Origin: a virus
Reading direction: 5' to 3' (one strand)
Length of the DNA stretch: 40,996 bases
IMG/VR virus record: IMGVR_UViG_3300019873_000001
Location: 1-40,996 of that record
Below are positions 1 to 40,996 of the stretch, one piece after another. Position 1 is the first letter of the stretch, and the number at the start of each line of letters is the position of its first letter. The translations under genes and the position numbers were made by a program. The notes under the pieces were generated by a model that was not told the DNA's origin, did no database searches, and saw nothing but the letters and a program-made list of their open reading frames with translations.

Positions 1-86
1 ACCAAATCAATACACTTATCAGGTAAAGTTTTCATAAATTCTAGGCAATCCACATTATGTATTTTATTTAATTCTAGTTCTTTCAT
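1..86 (-). CDS. DPPY-type DNA methyltransferase, 5' end only (cut by window edge)
   Basis: These 28 codons start with ATG at 86-84 and are identical to the N-terminus of the methyltransferase at 38720-39413. The window edge cuts the gene before its DPPY motif. Its TGA/ATG overlap with the 31-codon gene upstream matches the arrangement of the full copy. It is the version B end of the same gene, not a second complete gene. Confidence 0.75.
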   Translation of the reverse strand, partial: MKELELNKIHNVDCLEFMKTLPDKCIDL

Positions 87-178
87 TTCTTTCTGCGGAC
101 AAAGTAACGATCTCTACTGGGACGAAAGCCAAATGATATGTCCCACAAGTACTTTAAGATTCTATTAAGAGTTTTCAT
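83..178 (-). CDS. 31-aa basic small protein (version B copy)
   Basis: This short frame encodes a very basic peptide (R/K-rich C-terminus ending RRKK). Its ATG overlaps the stop of the MT-A70 gene, and its TGA overlaps the ATG of the DPPY methyltransferase, both as ATGA. The copy at 39410-39505 has the same length. Differences between copies are three silent changes plus S/D, G/D and I/V, and no frame breaks, which supports real coding. The function is unknown; a nucleic-acid-binding peptide is only a guess from the charge. Confidence 0.6.
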   Translation of the reverse strand: MKTLNRILKYLWDISFGFRPSRDRYFVRRKK

Positions 179-747
179 AATTCAATATCACTTTTAACTT
201 CATTTCCCCACGCCGACCATCCATCAAGAGGATTTTCATTAAATAGATTCCTGCTTCCATTATTGCGGGCGAAAAGTTCTATTCTGGGTAAATCTCCGCA
301 AAATTCTACGATTCTTTTTCTTACAATGTCTGGTTTCCTTGAATGCTCCTCTCTTGTAGTTTCAATAATGCTTGAAATCTTGTTGCTGATTTTAGGAGCT
401 TTGCCCTTTACACCGATTAAACATACTTCCGCATTTGACTTAGTGTACCAACCCACCCCGAAGAAATTACTCCCATTTTTATTTTTCTTTATCCAAGTGA
501 ACCCGACTGTCTTGTATTCAAACCCCCATGCTTTTATTACATCTAACGCCTCTTGAAGTTTAGGGAATGTCGCCCAGAGAAACAGAATACAATTATCGTC
601 TGCCATTTCCGCTATCGGTAATTTACAAATATCTTCGTTAGCCATAGTTGGATAATGTGCATTTGCGGTCGCTTGTATATTTCCCATGTTCCGGTAAGCC
701 CATGGCGGATCAGCGTAAATTATTTGATATTTCTTTATTTCATCCAT
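175..747 (-). CDS. MT-A70 family adenine methyltransferase
   Basis: This 190-aa protein is predicted to methylate adenine N6 in DNA using SAM. The MT-A70 catalytic DPPW motif is at residues 13-16 after a YA dipeptide. It also has the family's internal blocks: LFLWAT, a WGFEY block followed by FTWIKK, EHSRKPD near residue 133, RIELFARN, and a GWSAWGNEV-like end. The length is normal for a single-domain phage member. It lies between the 61-aa and 31-aa genes with overlaps on both sides. Version A of this locus (39.4 kb) lacks it, so it is an accessory cassette. A longer relative is at 34849-35718. No partner endonuclease is visible, so protection against host restriction is the likely role. Confidence 0.85.
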   Translation of the reverse strand: MDEIKKYQIIYADPPWAYRNMGNIQATANAHYPTMANEDICKLPIAEMADDNCILFLWATFPKLQEALDVIKAWGFEYKTVGFTWIKKNKNGSNFFGVGWYTKSNAEVCLIGVKGKAPKISNKISSIIETTREEHSRKPDIVRKRIVEFCGDLPRIELFARNNGSRNLFNENPLDGWSAWGNEVKSDIEL

Positions 748-920
748 TCGGGCTTATATTTTATAAAAAGTTGTTTCATCTTTTCTCTATCAATTTCTTC
801 TGCGGGATTTTCTTCTATTATTGGTGAGAGTTTCTTGTCTAGGTCTTTAGTAACTACAAAAACATCTCTCTTGGGATCGTAGTAGCCGTCAATTTTCTTT
901 TCGCCTTTTTTATTTTCCAT
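735..920 (-). CDS. Hypothetical 61-aa protein (allele of 39492-39689)
   Basis: No known family was recognised. It is clearly homologous to the 65-aa protein at 39492-39689. Both share a basic start, a GY(Y/M)D motif, LSP near the middle, (D/E)xID(A/R)EKMK and an ending of KYxPxWM. It overlaps the MT-A70 start by 13 bases. Strong divergence from its counterpart with conservation of pattern suggests a real, fast-evolving early protein. Confidence 0.65.
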   Translation of the reverse strand: MENKKGEKKIDGYYDPKRDVFVVTKDLDKKLSPIIEENPAEEIDREKMKQLFIKYKPEWMK

Positions 921-923
921 ATT

Positions 924-1238
924 TTAAGTAATTATTTCTCCAGTCGCCCTATCAATTTTAATTATTTTTAACTCAGTAAGCCTTTCAGGTTTAGGAAAAG
1001 GATTTTCCGTACTTATTCTCCAATTAGGTTTATTCTCCATCTTAAAAAGAGTAATGAGGTATGGTTCTTTAGAAATCGCATTCGTCTGTGCACGTTGTTC
1101 TTTTCGCTCCTTCTTTGCCGCTTTTCTCTCTGCCTTTTGCTCCGGCGTTAATTCAGGTTTTGGTTTTGCCAATTCTTCTACTTTCTTTTTATCTTCCTCT
1201 GATAAAATTGTAGCACTTAAATTTATTCCTTTTTTCAT
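924..1238 (-). CDS. Hypothetical 104-aa charged protein (version B only)
   Basis: The function was not recognised. Residues 15-52 are highly charged (K/E/R-rich, probably a helix or coiled coil), followed by a C-terminal segment ending in a DRATGEII motif. In version A the same slot holds an unrelated-looking 119-aa protein (39686-40045). It is the first gene of the version B early operon, followed at once by the 61-aa gene. No Shine-Dalgarno sequence precedes the ATG. Confidence 0.6.
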   Translation of the reverse strand: MKKGINLSATILSEEDKKKVEELAKPKPELTPEQKAERKAAKKERKEQRAQTNAISKEPYLITLFKMENKPNWRISTENPFPKPERLTELKIIKIDRATGEIIT

Positions 1239-1503
1239 TTTTGCTCATTTTATTTTTAATAAAGTACAGCCCCCACTTTGTGCCTTGGATACCACATTAG
1301 AGCGACCTATCTACACAATTGCATTATCTTTAGTTCCATAATAGCCCAGCATTATTACGATGTCAGATATTTAATACTCTGCTAACCAAGTCGGAGTTGT
1401 CAGTGGGGAGGACATTGCTCCAATTTCGCCAGCAGATTATTTCTAGGGAGCGTTTTACGAGGTGCTACCTAAATCTCGTTTCATTGTGATTGTAAAAACG
1501 CAA

Positions 1504-1533
1504 AAGTCCCCAGCTCAATTAAGGCGGGGACTT
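1504..1533. terminator. Bidirectional rho-independent terminator candidate
   Basis: AAGTCCCC (1504-1511) pairs with GGGGACTT (1526-1533) around a 14-base loop. T-rich sequence follows on both strands (TTTTGCG on minus, CCGGTTTT on plus). Confidence 0.5.
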
Positions 1534-1540
1534 CCGGTTT

Positions 1541-1629
1541 TATGTTTCGTAAAACAACTACACACTACAACAAATTCGCCTGAAAAGCAAACCGAGGAAT
1601 ATGCAAATGTTTTACTTTTACGAAACATA
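1541..1629. repeat. Perfect 14-bp inverted repeat with 61-bp spacer
   Basis: TATGTTTCGTAAAA at 1541-1554 is the exact reverse complement of 1616-1629. The spacing is too long for a simple terminator. Paired regulator sites, a long-range hairpin or a recombination-type site are possible. It is present only in version B. Confidence 0.7.
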
Positions 1630-1719
1630 CCTAAATTATAGAGCAAACAAGGGTAAATGCAAGTGGAAAAGCTGTTAATAAACCAATACAAAACAAAAAT
1701 AAAACAAGTCAAGTATAAA

Positions 1720-1793
1720 ACGCAGAAAGCCGGCGATTTTACGCCGACTTCTGATTCATATATGAGGTGTAGAGCCGCATAATAAGCGGGTAC
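1720..1793 (-). ncRNA. Candidate small RNA with own promoter and terminator
   Basis: A sigma70-like promoter (1800-1828) would start transcription near 1793, running leftward. About 40 bases on, a perfect minus-strand 9-bp stem (1727-1735/1742-1750, one G-U pair, 6-base loop) is followed by TTTCTGCGTTTTA. Inside lies a small hairpin, CCGC-loop-GCGG (1774-1788). The result would be a roughly 70-nt RNA or a terminated leader in front of the early genes. This is inferred from sequence only. Confidence 0.4.
1727..1750 (-). terminator. Rho-independent terminator
   Basis: A 9-bp GC-rich stem with an ATTTTA loop on the plus strand. On the minus-strand RNA the single mismatch becomes a G-U pair, and a T-rich tail follows, so it acts leftward. 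Confidence 0.6.
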
Positions 1794-1799
1794 TGCTAC

Positions 1800-1828
1800 A
1801 TTATACACTAAAAACACAAAGGGGGCAA
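1800..1828 (-). promoter_or_regulatory. Sigma70-like promoter for candidate small RNA
   Basis: On the minus strand: -35 TTGCCC (1828-1823), 17-bp spacer, -10 TATAAT (1805-1800). The -35 lies inside the 1822-1840 hairpin. Confidence 0.5.
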
Positions 1829-1840
1829 GGTTATTGCCCC
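1822..1840 (-). terminator. Terminator-like hairpin
   Basis: GGGGCAA (1822-1828) pairs with TTGCCCC (1834-1840) around a 5-base loop. On minus it is followed by CTTTGTGTTTTTAG, an imperfect T tract. Confidence 0.5.
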
Positions 1841-1896
1841 GATCATGCCATGAAATGTGCAGGTGCGAAAAGATTAAACGCCCTGCCCCAAAAAAG

Positions 1897-30557: not shown

Positions 30558-31206
30558 ATAATTCTTTTAATTTTAGCATAAGTTCCTGTGGATTTCCAAC
30601 CTCTACAACAGGTATAACTCCTATCACAGACTCATCATTTCCGCCTTTCATAAGTTTATCTCCGAAGTATATACAATCTTTTTTATTCCATTCCATTTGA
30701 CGTATAAAGCGTTCTATGTTCTTACCCTTCGTACCATCCTTTCTAGTATAGTCTAAACAGGTTGTTCCAGCTATCCTACATTCTAGCTTATTATTCAAAA
30801 ATGGCTTATCTTTTAGTATCTTCTCTCGTATCTTTCCTGTGGGGTCATATGTCTTTTTCAATTCTATGGGAGCGTTATGCCCCACCAAACTCAATGCTAT
30901 CAAACAACCTCTATCATCTATCATATCTGGCTTGACTTCCACTATTTTATTTATGTGGTTTAGTATCTTTTTCTTTTCATTTTCTGTTAAGGTTTTTTTC
31001 CATAAATAGGTATCGTTGCCAGATTGCGCCATCGTAATACATTCCAAGTTATTTAACTGATCCCTCATTCTTTCTTTCTGCGCGCCGCTTATAACTACGA
31101 TATTATGTGTTCTTCCTAAATGTTGCAATACCTCTAACATTTTATCTGAAATATCCTGTCGGGATTCACAAACAGTATTGTCCATATCTAGGAAGAGGTG
31201 TTTCAT
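30550..31206 (-). CDS. Phosphomannomutase-like HAD family protein
   Basis: A 218-aa protein. HAD motif I DMDNT (7-11), ISGAQKERM (39-47), a cap with YDPTGKIREKI (120-130), and FGDKLMKGGND (181-191), matching eukaryotic-type PMM proteins (DKTxxGGND). Likely interconverts hexose 6- and 1-phosphate or is a sugar phosphatase. The substrate is unknown, but the adjacent RmlB-like and cytidylyltransferase genes need sugar 1-phosphates. Confidence 0.75.
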   Translation of the reverse strand: MKHLFLDMDNTVCESRQDISDKMLEVLQHLGRTHNIVVISGAQKERMRDQLNNLECITMAQSGNDTYLWKKTLTENEKKKILNHINKIVEVKPDMIDDRGCLIALSLVGHNAPIELKKTYDPTGKIREKILKDKPFLNNKLECRIAGTTCLDYTRKDGTKGKNIERFIRQMEWNKKDCIYFGDKLMKGGNDESVIGVIPVVEVGNPQELMLKLKELYD

Positions 31207-32195
31207 AATGAATCTTTAATCCGTTGTCTTAATGAGGCACTCGAATATGTGTGCTGGCGACTGTTAAAAATAGTTTTAAGTGGTAAATTATCTCCTGTGA
31301 ATGGTTTGCCTTTATGGTCTTCACCTATAATTCTAACATCTGGTCTTACATTTTCTAATATCTTTAACAAATCATTTTCTGTTTTATATACAATAATGTT
31401 ATCAATATATCTGTTCCCAGATAAAATAATTAACCTTTCCTCTACTGTCATTATAGGTTTATTTTTTTCAGGTCTTTCAATACTAGGGTCTTCATGCAAT
31501 CCCACAATTAGGTATTCACAATATTGTTTACATTCTTGGAATGTCATGCAGTGTCCTGCATGAACAAAATCCCATGCACCAAAAGTTATCCCAACCTTAA
31601 AATTAAAATCTATTGCGTCATGTTTTTTACAGTTGCAGCTTATACAAAGAGGTTGGATATTTATAATTCTATCAGTTCCGCCTTTACTAATCGGTAAAAT
31701 ATGGTCTCTTGTCAATTTCCAATGTTGCTTTCCCCACAATTCCTTTAAACGACTTTCAGGAATACCACACCTAGCGCAACAATAATTAAATTCTTTTTTC
31801 TTTCTATCCCAATCTGCTTCCGTGTATGTGCCCATAATTCCTTTCTTAAGAAGTCTCCTTTTTCGTGTAAGTTCTAGCATTTTTGGAGCAAACTTTTTAC
31901 GAGCTCTCTTTAAGGATATTCTACCCTGTTCCGTTTTACTCCATCTCTTGATTCGTTCTGCTATTTTTTTCTTAACTTCGGGCTTCCGCCTCTTAATTCT
32001 CCGCACCTCATAATCACGTTCCTTATATCTTGGATATCTAATTTCTTTTTGTCGTTTTAAGTTATTTGTATATGTGCAACTTCCTTTTTCAAAAACACTT
32101 CCACACCTTATGTTTCTAGGAGTATTGGATATAAATTCCTTCTCACAATCAACACATAATCTTTCTCTAGGAAATCCCTTCAAACCTTTCCTCAT
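31203..32195 (-). CDS. HNH endonuclease / cytidylyltransferase chimera
   Basis: A 330-aa single frame with two unrelated parts. Residues 1-195: basic, with CVDC, then an HNH zinc nuclease (CCARC 139-143, LTRDHILPISKGGTD 161-175, CISC 184-187). Residues 199-330: a TagD/RfaE-type nucleotidyltransferase (VGITFGAWDFVHAGH with HxGH at 212-215, HEDPSIE, VEERLIILSG, VRIIGEDH, and a C-terminal SSASLRQRI). The second part lacks its own ATG, so the mobile nuclease seems fused to its N-terminus. It is unknown whether both work. Confidence 0.8.
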   Translation of the reverse strand: MRKGLKGFPRERLCVDCEKEFISNTPRNIRCGSVFEKGSCTYTNNLKRQKEIRYPRYKERDYEVRRIKRRKPEVKKKIAERIKRWSKTEQGRISLKRARKKFAPKMLELTRKRRLLKKGIMGTYTEADWDRKKKEFNYCCARCGIPESRLKELWGKQHWKLTRDHILPISKGGTDRIINIQPLCISCNCKKHDAIDFNFKVGITFGAWDFVHAGHCMTFQECKQYCEYLIVGLHEDPSIERPEKNKPIMTVEERLIILSGNRYIDNIIVYKTENDLLKILENVRPDVRIIGEDHKGKPFTGDNLPLKTIFNSRQHTYSSASLRQRIKDSL

Positions 32196-34848: not shown

Positions 34849-35718
34849 TTAAACTTCATTTCCCCAAACTTGCCAACCTTTTATTTTTTCTCTTGCGAAT
34901 AATTCTATACGATTCCCTGGCGATATTGCTTCTATCATTTCCCTGAATTCTTTAGGTTTTTCTGAGTGTTGCAGGCGAGGATATTCAAACCAAGTAGTAT
35001 CAATTCTTTTATTCGCTTCTAGTGTTCCCCTACGACAGAATAAAAGGTGTTCCGTTGTTTGCACAAATGTTCCCCCTAATCCAATACCATGTGGCGGTTT
35101 TACCCATGTCAATAAACAACTAGGTTCAAATCCCCAAGCCCTAGCAATATCATAACTTTCTCTTATATATTTATTTATCACCCATAAATATAAGTGAGCA
35201 TTTTCATCGGCTAGGTTTTTAACAGGTATTGCTGTTATTTCTTCTATTGACATTGTTGGGTAAAGTAAATCCTTGCTTTCTTCACCACTTCCCCAGTCGG
35301 GACCCGCTTTAACATCCCATGGCGGATCGGCATAAATAACTTGAAATTTACCAGTTGGTAATTCATTTATTAAGTCTATTTTCTTTGGTTCAGGAAGATA
35401 CAGTGTTATCAATTTATTCCATGTGAGGTTTTTCCCTTCTGGCATACTACCAATTTCAGGATATTTTTCATAGGCTTTAATCGCATAATGAATAGTCCTA
35501 CTAGCTATGCCTAAAGATTCTGCAAGCCCTTGCACAATCTTTTGTCCGTATATTTTATTTCTTTCAAAGTTCTTATTTTCTTCAGAAATCCTTTTTCCCA
35601 ACTCCCAATATCCCTCTACCAAAGCCCACCTAGATGTAAAAACTGCCTCCGTGATAATTGCCTTGCATTCTTCTACCAGTGCCTCATACCATTCTTCGTT
35701 TTTGATAATGATAGGCAT
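34849..35718 (-). CDS. DUF1016-N / MT-A70 fusion adenine methyltransferase
   Basis: A 289-aa protein. Residues 10-90 match the DUF1016 N-domain pattern (ALVEGYWELGKRISEE, YGQKIVQGLAESLG, helix-turn-helix-like SRTIHYAIKAYEKYPE). Residues 125-289 are MT-A70: DPPW (131-134), LYLWV, FEPSCLLTWVK, HSEKPKEFREMIE, RIELFARE, GWQVWGNEV. A probable orphan N6-adenine methyltransferase; the N-domain may give DNA specificity. Distant relative of the version B enzyme at 175-747. Confidence 0.85.
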   Translation of the reverse strand: MPIIIKNEEWYEALVEECKAIITEAVFTSRWALVEGYWELGKRISEENKNFERNKIYGQKIVQGLAESLGIASRTIHYAIKAYEKYPEIGSMPEGKNLTWNKLITLYLPEPKKIDLINELPTGKFQVIYADPPWDVKAGPDWGSGEESKDLLYPTMSIEEITAIPVKNLADENAHLYLWVINKYIRESYDIARAWGFEPSCLLTWVKPPHGIGLGGTFVQTTEHLLFCRRGTLEANKRIDTTWFEYPRLQHSEKPKEFREMIEAISPGNRIELFAREKIKGWQVWGNEV

Positions 35719-38719: not shown

Positions 38720-39413
38720 CTAAAATAAGGTGTTGCTTATGCTTTTAATTCTTGCTTCGGCGATTTTGCAGTATTTAGGGGATATTTCACAGCCGATGTA
38801 GTTTCGCTTATCTAATTTACACGCTATTGCGGTGCTACCGCTTCCTAGAAATGGATCAAAAATAATTTCTCCTTCTTTGGAATAATCTCGCAAGATTTGT
38901 CGCATCAACTCTATCGGTTTTTGAGTAGGGTGATATCGTTCTTCTTTATTCCTGCCCATTTGTTCTTGTAGCATCCCGTTCCATTTCCATTTATATTTTC
39001 TTATTGCGGTTTTGAAGGATGTCCACATAAGCTCACAATCAGCAAAAAAACTTTCTCCATTGTCTTTATCCCAAACCAACCAACAAGAGGAATTACTTAA
39101 ATGCTCTACAAAATAATTTCCACCGAAGATAATTTGATTTTTGCTTATTCGCATCATTTCTTCGAATACTTCTTTATTCGGGATTTTAGTATCATCAAAT
39201 CCCAAGTAACTTTTGGGGGCGATACTCCTTGTATGCCCACCTTTACCGAACGGCTTTGCCCCGCCGACTTCAACTCTCTCTCTCGATTGGCTTACCCACG
39301 TTTATTCCATACGGCGGGTCTGTTAGTACCAAATCAATACACTTATCAGGTAAAGTTTTCATAAATTCTAGGCAATCCACATTATGTATTTTATTTAATT
39401 CTAGTTCTTTCAT
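38720..39413 (-). pseudogene. DPPY-type DNA methyltransferase, split at a (GA)n tract (possibly phase-variable)
   Basis: The ATG at 39413 opens 47 codons with VDCLEFMKTLPDK and LTDPPYGI (catalytic DPPY at 32-35) and stops at TGA 39272-39270. The rest continues one frame over: GGHTRSIAPKSYLGFDD, ISKNQIIFGGNYF, PTQKPIELMRQIL, DPFLGSGSTAIAC (SAM motif I) and NYIGCEI, to 38720. The switch lies at an 11-base GA run (39274-39284). One extra GA unit, or one base less, would join both into a normal 230-aa N4/N6 methyltransferase. Either slippage switching, a strain mutation or an assembly error. Confidence 0.8.
39274..39284 (-). repeat. (GA)5G dinucleotide tract inside methyltransferase
   Basis: GAGAGAGAGAG on minus. 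The up- and downstream reading frames differ by exactly the amount restored by adding one GA unit. Confidence 0.85.
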
Positions 39414-39505
39414 TTCTTTCTGCGGATAAAGTAACGACCTCTACTAGGACGAAAGCCGAATGATATGCTCCACAAATACTTTAAGATTCTATTAAGAGTT
39501 TTCAT
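39328..39505. repeat. Right copy of diverged direct repeat (version A)
   Basis: Counterpart of 1-178. Marks the left branch point between versions A and B. Confidence 0.9.
39410..39505 (-). CDS. 31-aa basic small protein (version A copy)
   Basis: Same length and overlaps as 83-178; TGA overlaps the methyltransferase ATG. The substitution pattern between copies is mostly silent or conservative. Unknown function. Confidence 0.6.
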   Translation of the reverse strand: MKTLNRILKYLWSISFGFRPSRGRYFIRRKK

Positions 39506-39689
39506 TTGGCATCCATGAAGGACGATATTTCTTAAATAATAATTTCATCTTTTCTGCATCAATATCCTCTAGTGGATGTTCTGACTCCTGTGGTGAAAGA
39601 ACTTGGTCAGGATCGGCAGTTATGACATATACACCCCTTGCTTCATCCATATATCCTTCCACTCTTCTTTTTTGTGGTTGTTTTTTCAT
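39492..39689 (-). CDS. Hypothetical 65-aa protein (allele of 735-920)
   Basis: Shares GYMDEARG, VLSP, EDIDAEKMK and KYRPSWM patterns with the 61-aa protein of version B. Overlaps neighbours on both sides. Function unknown. Confidence 0.65.
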   Translation of the reverse strand: MKKQPQKRRVEGYMDEARGVYVITADPDQVLSPQESEHPLEDIDAEKMKLLFKKYRPSWMPNENS

Positions 39690-40045
39690 TTAAGTAGTTT
39701 AGTTTTTGCTTCTTCTAAAGGTAATTCCAAGACTTGCGGATTTTTTCCCGCCAAGGATGCTACTTGTTTTGCATCAAACAGGGCGTCTCTTAATTTTTTA
39801 TCCACTCCTTTAGCGCGAATTTCGTTCCAATCATCATCGTCCAGCGTATGTGTCGGATTCCACCCCATAGTTTCATTATACGCGGGTTGAATCTCTTGTA
39901 TATTCTTTCCTATTAACGCCAAACCATTACTAAACACGCCCCTCTCCTCCGGATGTAGAAACAAATAGTATGCCTTGTGTGCTTCGTCAGCTTCTATAAC
40001 TAAATACTGCTCTTGCCTAAACCCTGTGATTATCTTTATTTTCAT
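39686..40045 (-). CDS. Hypothetical 119-aa protein (version A only)
   Basis: Alpha/beta start (MKIKIITGFRQEQYLVIEADEAHKAYYLF over residues 1-29, abridged: IKIITGF, LVIEADEAHKAYY), then a helical end. Occupies the slot of the 104-aa gene of version B. Coupled by ATGA to the initiator-like gene. No family recognised. Confidence 0.55.
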   Translation of the reverse strand: MKIKIITGFRQEQYLVIEADEAHKAYYLFLHPEERGVFSNGLALIGKNIQEIQPAYNETMGWNPTHTLDDDDWNEIRAKGVDKKLRDALFDAKQVASLAGKNPQVLELPLEEAKTKLLK

Positions 40046-40737
40046 TGGAATGCTATTTTGGGCTTTTCTTTTTGTTTGCCCTTTAATTTTAATATCCCAG
40101 CTTCAAGAGACGACCATTTCTCTAAAAGTTGTGTCGGACTGATAATTGTAGGTAAATACTCTAGTTTATTCGTTTTGGGTAGAGTATTCTCAATTACATT
40201 CTTTATTCTTTCAAACCCAAAAAGTGAAATAAGCTCCGCGCATGCACTTCTTTGGTTGGGTCGTTTGTAGAAATTCTTTGCATTTGGGTTGATTGCTTCA
40301 AAGGACTTTATAAGAAGATTTATCTCCTCCAAACCCTGTTTGGTGTCTATTCTGTCTTTGTCTACTGTTACTGTCTTATTAGATTCTACATTTTCGTTAG
40401 GAGATTCTACATTTTTGTTGAATCTAATAGATTCTACATTTTTGTTGAATCTCTTTTTGGCTTTCATCACTCTGATACTCAATCCATAAGGGGTTCTGAT
40501 TTTTTTGATATAGCCCTCCGCTTCTAATTTATCTAGGTTTCTTGAAATAGTCATCTCTTCTACTCCATCTGCCATATCCTTTAGTTTGATTGGTTTTCCA
40601 CCTAAAACCCAACCCATACCCGCATCATCTATTTTTGTAATTTTATCTATGAGCCACATAAACTCCCAAACTGCGGAGCTGATCCTTTTTCTATGTCCAT
40701 CTTTTAACAAACCATTTGAAATAGTGATGTAATACAT
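40042..40737 (-). CDS. Replication initiator-like helix-turn-helix protein, 231 aa
   Basis: The start at 40737 (MYYITISNGL) is preferred; a longer frame from a TTG at 40812 would begin inside the -10 element. Residues 15-100 form a winged-helix-type domain (GHRKRISSAVWEFMWLIDKITKID, GGKPIKLKDMADG, TISRNLDKLEAEGYIKKIRTPYG). A linker with repeated FNKNVES motifs follows, then a helical C-terminus. Phage replisome organisers share this layout and carry their origin inside the gene, and here iteron-like DNA repeats lie in the linker. Absent from version B. Confidence 0.6.
   Translation of the reverse strand: MYYITISNGLLKDGHRKRISSAVWEFMWLIDKITKIDDAGMGWVLGGKPIKLKDMADGVEEMTISRNLDKLEAEGYIKKIRTPYGLSIRVMKAKKRFNKNVESIRFNKNVESPNENVESNKTVTVDKDRIDTKQGLEEINLLIKSFEAINPNAKNFYKRPNQRSACAELISLFGFERIKNVIENTLPKTNKLEYLPTIISPTQLLEKWSSLEAGILKLKGKQKEKPKIAFQ
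40381..40452. repeat. Iteron-like repeats, candidate replication origin
   Basis: AGATTCTACATTTTTGTTGA followed by ATCT at 40402-40425 and 40429-40452 (identical 24-mers, 27-bp period), plus a partial third copy at 40381-40401. The 40420-40434 junction is a GAATCTA-A-TAGATTC palindrome. Located inside the initiator-like gene. Confidence 0.6.
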
Positions 40738-40870: not shown

Positions 40871-40996
40871 TAAAACGCAGAAAGCCGGCGATTTTACGCC
40901 GACTTCTGATTCATATATGAGGTGTAGAGCCGCATAATAAGCGGGTACTGCTACATTATACACTAAAAACACAAAGGGGGCAAGGTTATTGCCCCG
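40871..40996. repeat. 126-bp exact direct repeat, terminal copy
   Basis: Identical to 1716-1841; contains the second copy of the candidate small RNA, its terminator and its promoter (40955-40983). It joins version A to the late-operon terminator array in the circular reading. Confidence 0.95.
40875..40948 (-). ncRNA. Candidate small RNA, second copy in terminal repeat
   Basis: Same sequence as 1720-1793. In version A this RNA would lie directly upstream of the initiator-like gene and could act as a terminated leader for it. Confidence 0.35.

Follow-up and report, generated by a model that had tools for sequence, protein, structure and literature searches.

The DNA analyzed here (hereafter the window) is a single virus record of IMG/VR type, 40,996 bases long, whose genes lie on the minus strand. 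It probably represents a circular ~39.2 kb phage genome that was opened at a locus varying between strains and written with one variant of that locus at each end. The main result is an assembly artefact on top of ordinary phage mosaicism, and the record is best understood as a circular phage of ~39.2 kb whose early locus exists in two alternative forms; it should not be taken for a 41 kb genome endowed with both a replication initiator and an MT-A70 methyltransferase. Gene counts, pangenomes, and completeness estimates that take the record as a 41 kb genome would be wrong.

In plus coordinates, the record has the order X-B-Y-core-X-A-Y, in which two duplicated flanks, X and Y, enclose the alternative gene sets A and B. 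Both flanks reach a contig end, and their order and orientation are kept. The flank copies are as follows.

1-178, minus strand: flank X, B-side copy, holding the 31-aa gene (86-178, stop 83-85) and the first codons of the downstream DNA methyltransferase (alignment, ORF, tblastn)
39328-39505, minus strand: flank X, A-side copy, with the 31-aa gene at 39413-39505 (stop 39410-39412) and an ATGA overlap with the methyltransferase start (39411-39413)
1716-1841, minus strand: flank Y, B-side copy, with a promoter-like TATAAT, a 5' hairpin, and a terminator (fold z -4.4)
40871-40996, minus strand: flank Y, A-side copy, truncated by the contig end

BLAST self-comparison of the window bears out both alignments claimed in the sequence-only reading. 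The copies of flank X align without gaps at 171 of 178 positions (E 1e-78), with bases 1-99 identical and all seven differences (100, 111, 119, 131, 141, 142, and 149) lying in bases 100-178, and the copies of flank Y are identical over 126/126 bases (E 3e-60), with mismatch beginning at 1715/40870. The only other self-match is a 58-bp stretch (756-813 against 39525-39582, 76% identity) located inside the 61-aa and 65-aa genes. Given these E-values and the single additional match, chance can be excluded as the source of the flank duplication. The conservation of flank X is coding and corresponds to the 31-aa gene; a conserved RNA structure was ruled out in this flank, which folds no better than its shuffles. 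The minus strand of 1720-2000, spanning flank Y and its upstream region between the end of the lysis genes and the early operon, displays a series of promoter-like boxes and terminator hairpins, reminiscent of small promoter-RNA-terminator units.

Between the flanks lie the genes of version B, at the start of the record, and those of version A, at its end, with a methyltransferase gene common to both versions adjoining flank X.

175-747, minus strand: version B, MT-A70 adenine methyltransferase, 190 aa (PF05063, E 2e-27)
735-920, minus strand: version B, 61-aa protein
924-1238, minus strand: version B, 104-aa orphan protein
1239-1715: version B, non-coding stretch, 5' of the 104-aa gene on the minus strand
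1500-1640, minus strand: version B, candidate small RNA with TATAAT, an extended hairpin with 14-nt perfect arms (1541-1554/1616-1629), and a terminator hairpin
38720-39413, minus strand: N4/N6 DNA methyltransferase common to both versions, its frame broken at (GA)5 39275-39284
39492-39689, minus strand: version A, 65-aa protein
39686-40045, minus strand: version A, 119-aa protein, initiator partner in the position of lambda P, with homologues immediately following the initiator gene in other phages
40042-40737, minus strand: version A, O/DnaD-like replication initiator, 231 aa from ATG 40737 (256 aa from TTG 40812), matching phrog_7498
40377-40452, no strand assigned: version A, three 22-24-nt direct repeats, iteron/origin candidate, inside the initiator gene (codons 96-121)

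The two versions had been described as different gene sets. Both do carry the genes then listed, but their contents overlap: the 61-aa protein of B is a homologue of A's 65-aa protein (48% identity), and the 31-aa gene encoded in flank X, whose products are 90% identical between the A and B copies, had been missed. Versions A and B hence have two homologous genes in common, in the same order, and the stop of the 31-aa gene overlaps the start of the next gene, the DNA methyltransferase. An IMG/VR scan with the 61/65-aa pair returned no relatives; the one relative was found through the 31-aa gene, in IMGVR 3300020020_000061 (L151), where a 62-aa gene (59% identity to the 61-aa protein of B, 47% to the 65-aa protein of A), a 31-aa gene, and a methyltransferase follow each other in that order, without MT-A70. 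Because the shared genes keep their order in both versions, and this order recurs in L151, A and B are, as judged from gene content, allelic versions of one locus.

The 31-aa basic protein, GFRxSRxRYFxRRKK, occurs in three different phages (86-178 and 39413-39505 in the window, L128:17790-17882, and L151:5001-5093), each time with the next gene directly behind it and its start overlapping. Intact relatives of the broken-frame methyltransferase are present in L012, L041, and L086, and the (GA)5 break could reflect either an assembly error or a switchable repeat. Among annotated phages, DNA similarity to the early region is limited to a patch of this methyltransferase in Staphylococcus phages, and none was detected for 1239-2300.

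An assembler faced with an unresolved strain bubble would open a circular phage genome at that point and keep both variants at the contig ends. On the minus strand, read 5' to 3', the true order would be the lysis genes, flank Y as an intergenic promoter/terminator element, A or B, flank X with its 31-aa gene, the methyltransferase, and the remaining early operon. Within the bubble, the A arm would comprise the O/DnaD-like initiator with its own iterons, its 119-aa partner, and the 65-aa gene, and the B arm the structured RNA, the 104-aa gene, the 61-aa gene, and MT-A70. The circles that can be built from the window measure 39,155 bp (core and A) and 39,327 bp (core and B), compared with the 38,892 bp of a relative bearing direct terminal repeats, which supports the earlier proposal of a circular genome of about 39 kb. 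This relative, IMGVR 3300012168_000002 (G002; record of 39,015 bp), is probably near-complete, since it carries a 123-bp direct terminal repeat; its only copy of the locus is of type A, and the MT-A70, 61-aa, and 104-aa genes are all absent from it.

The geometry of the record agrees with such a bubble in most respects. Both alternative segments are bounded by flanks X and Y, with order and orientation conserved, and the joint k-mer graph of both circles branches only at X and Y at every k tested (55-127), with the branching k-mer starting exactly at window position 1 at k=99. The overlaps at the two ends, however, do not have one common length (99 vs. 126), and they are therefore not the signature of one single-k bubble; a common overlap length is to be expected only from single-k assembly without trimming. 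Multi-k assembly or trimming could account for the inequality. The values 99 and 127 belong to a common multi-k setting, and the observed overlaps of 99 and 126 adjoin them. The assembly event itself we infer from this geometry. De Bruijn assemblers are unable to phase variants separated by more than k, or to decide which sides go together (PMC11443906). The window resembles de Bruijn strain-variant bubbles in having two alternative arms between common flanks, both written at contig ends, and differs from them in that the arms diverge by whole gene cassettes instead of single-base variants.

The contig as written does hold both versions, and its duplicated flanks could be real repeats, as in a genome truly carrying A and B, either in tandem duplication on a circle or at opposite ends of a linear molecule. 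Such a genome is nonetheless highly improbable. If the molecule were linear and ended at base 1, the methyltransferase would be truncated after ~28 codons even though its other copy runs on, and the opposite end would fall inside the promoter/terminator element. Contig ends of this kind, one within a gene and one within a duplicated element, argue against a real genome terminus. A circle, in turn, requires an unseen Y-to-X join, and only one version is present in the relative that carries direct terminal repeats.

Version A appears, from its sequence, to be a lambda O-P-like replication module. Its initiator belongs to an initiator/loader family, matching the DnaD-like helicase loaders of phrog_7498 (E 5e-22), and its homologue in G002 matches Phage_rep_O (PF04492, E 6e-22) and TIGR01610. 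The predicted structure of the version A initiator is of low overall confidence (pLDDT 59) and yielded no significant match, with only weak winged-helix resemblances. The direct repeats sit in a disordered, low-confidence linker (residues 92-133) that connects the two predicted domains. Of nine homologues, eight carry repeats within the gene, which in each case exceed all 30 shuffles and differ in sequence from phage to phage; the ninth is a fragment. The 119-aa partner is conserved in eight phages and is adjacent to the initiator in the relatives examined. Its model is confident (pLDDT 93), and it has no match among solved or viral predicted structures, nor detectable similarity to known families.

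The iterons of the lambda origin (ori-lambda) are located in the middle of the O gene (PMC3985674). The version A initiator shares with this system an N-terminal winged-helix-type domain, mid-gene repeats, a helical C-terminal domain, and a downstream partner gene, and its relatives in G002 and L142 match Phage_rep_O. Unlike lambda O, however, the initiator in the window matches a DnaD-like helicase loader family, and not PF04492, and for its 119-aa partner no similarity to known families or structures could be detected. The DnaD-like (XkdB-like) loader of Geobacillus phage phiOH2 is 45% identical over residues 27-125 of the 256-aa initiator; this likeness is restricted to the N-terminal domain, whereas the C-terminal domain is common to the relatives found here. 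By analogy with lambda O, the version A initiator would bind to the iterons that its gene contains, a putative origin, and together with the 119-aa protein, a presumable helicase loader given its lambda P position, would bring in the host replicative helicase in the manner of lambda O and P. In this module, an O/DnaD-like initiator whose gene contains iterons is paired with a conserved helicase-loader candidate that has no structural match. In L136-L142, proteins of this ~119-aa family immediately follow O/DnaD-like initiators with swapped N-terminal domains, again with no match to a known fold, making the family a candidate helicase-loader family.

Version B lacks the initiator, the 119-aa partner, and the in-gene iterons of version A, and no initiator or helicase was recognized with Pfam and PHROGs among the larger early core proteins scanned, which leaves core plus B with no recognized replication start. 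Without a recognized initiator, B makes an odd full substitute for A, and whether it belongs to the same core is the main doubt. The geometry, the circle sizes, and the shared gene order uphold the proposed locus swap between co-existing strains, with both paths written into one contig, but the membership of B in the same core does not share that support.

The MT-A70 protein of B is a clear member of PF05063 (96.5 bits against a curated cut-off of 23.9, profile positions 1-172 of 172). It is 98% identical in amino acids to a gene of IMGVR 3300019873_000003 that occupies a different genome position; the gene thus acts like a mobile cassette among these phages. Its placement exactly at the overlapping junction of the 61-aa and 31-aa genes looks, in the sequence, like a one-gene insertion. 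The common core encodes a further MT-A70 protein, joined at its N terminus to a DUF1016-like part (34849-35718), and B strains would therefore carry two MT-A70 genes. A search of B for defence systems with PADLOC matched only the methyltransferase itself. The 104-aa protein has no relatives in IMG/VR, Pfam, or PADLOC and only sub-threshold matches in PHROGs and NCBIfam. The RNA candidate folds stably (MFE -48.6, z -5.9), and Rfam returned no family either on the whole window or, at a loose threshold, on 1-2400. A search for relatives by its inverted repeat gave eight matches; the six inspected had unrelated inter-arm sequence and looked like chance.

The absence of a recognized initiator from core plus B is what would be expected if B came from another phage of the sample, a mosaic one with only X, Y, and perhaps neighboring patches in common, and was joined to this core by the assembler through Y. 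The relatives of this phage group lend some plausibility to such an origin. They hold cassettes at high DNA identity in otherwise unrelated contexts, as illustrated by an MT-A70 gene at 91% nucleotide identity elsewhere in the relative G004, and this same phage has its own DnaD-like initiator and DnaB-like helicase in the slot just before the same 31-aa gene. Two recent exact exchanges would nevertheless be needed, one per flank, and flank X is diverged yet homologous (seven differences in 100-178) and in the right position. Trinucleotide composition, for its part, does not set A or B apart from the early core and did not discriminate a native version. On balance, a foreign origin of B is unlikely, though it warrants consideration, and strain variants of one circular genome are still the preferred reading.

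In B, the slot before the 61-aa and 31-aa genes is occupied by the orphan 104-aa gene and the stretch with TATAAT, long hairpin, and terminator, and this region may serve replication, regulation, or neither purpose. B may stem from a phage that differs in part from this one, rely on some other replicator, or have one of an unrecognized kind. That B is a functional replacement of origin and initiator, with the 104-aa protein and the structured 140-nt RNA as an unrecognized replication system, is very unlikely; if it were, co-existing strains would swap the whole replication start ahead of the 61/65-aa and 31-aa genes. B could also derive from the A phage by replacement of the initiator and its in-gene iterons, with the rest of the shared operon kept, and so be defective in replication or dependent on a helper. 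B has intact-looking small genes, promoters, and the RNA candidate, however, and is not a plain deletion, and since iterons act in cis a helper could not easily replicate B unless it had an origin of its own, making such a derivative extremely improbable.

Under the preferred reading of two strain variants in one contig, the locus is a slot at which closely related environmental phages appear to swap entire replication modules. Terminase relatives (47-65% identity) were found in genome bins labelled nzgw (L158-L160), probably denoting New Zealand groundwater, and one of these is labelled Candidatus Nomurabacteria, hinting at a host from the candidate phyla radiation. Elsewhere in the window, a single ORF (31203-32195) encodes an apparent fusion of an HNH endonuclease (residues 107-197) and a cytidylyltransferase-like enzyme (residues 201-328), as if a homing endonuclease had been inserted in frame.
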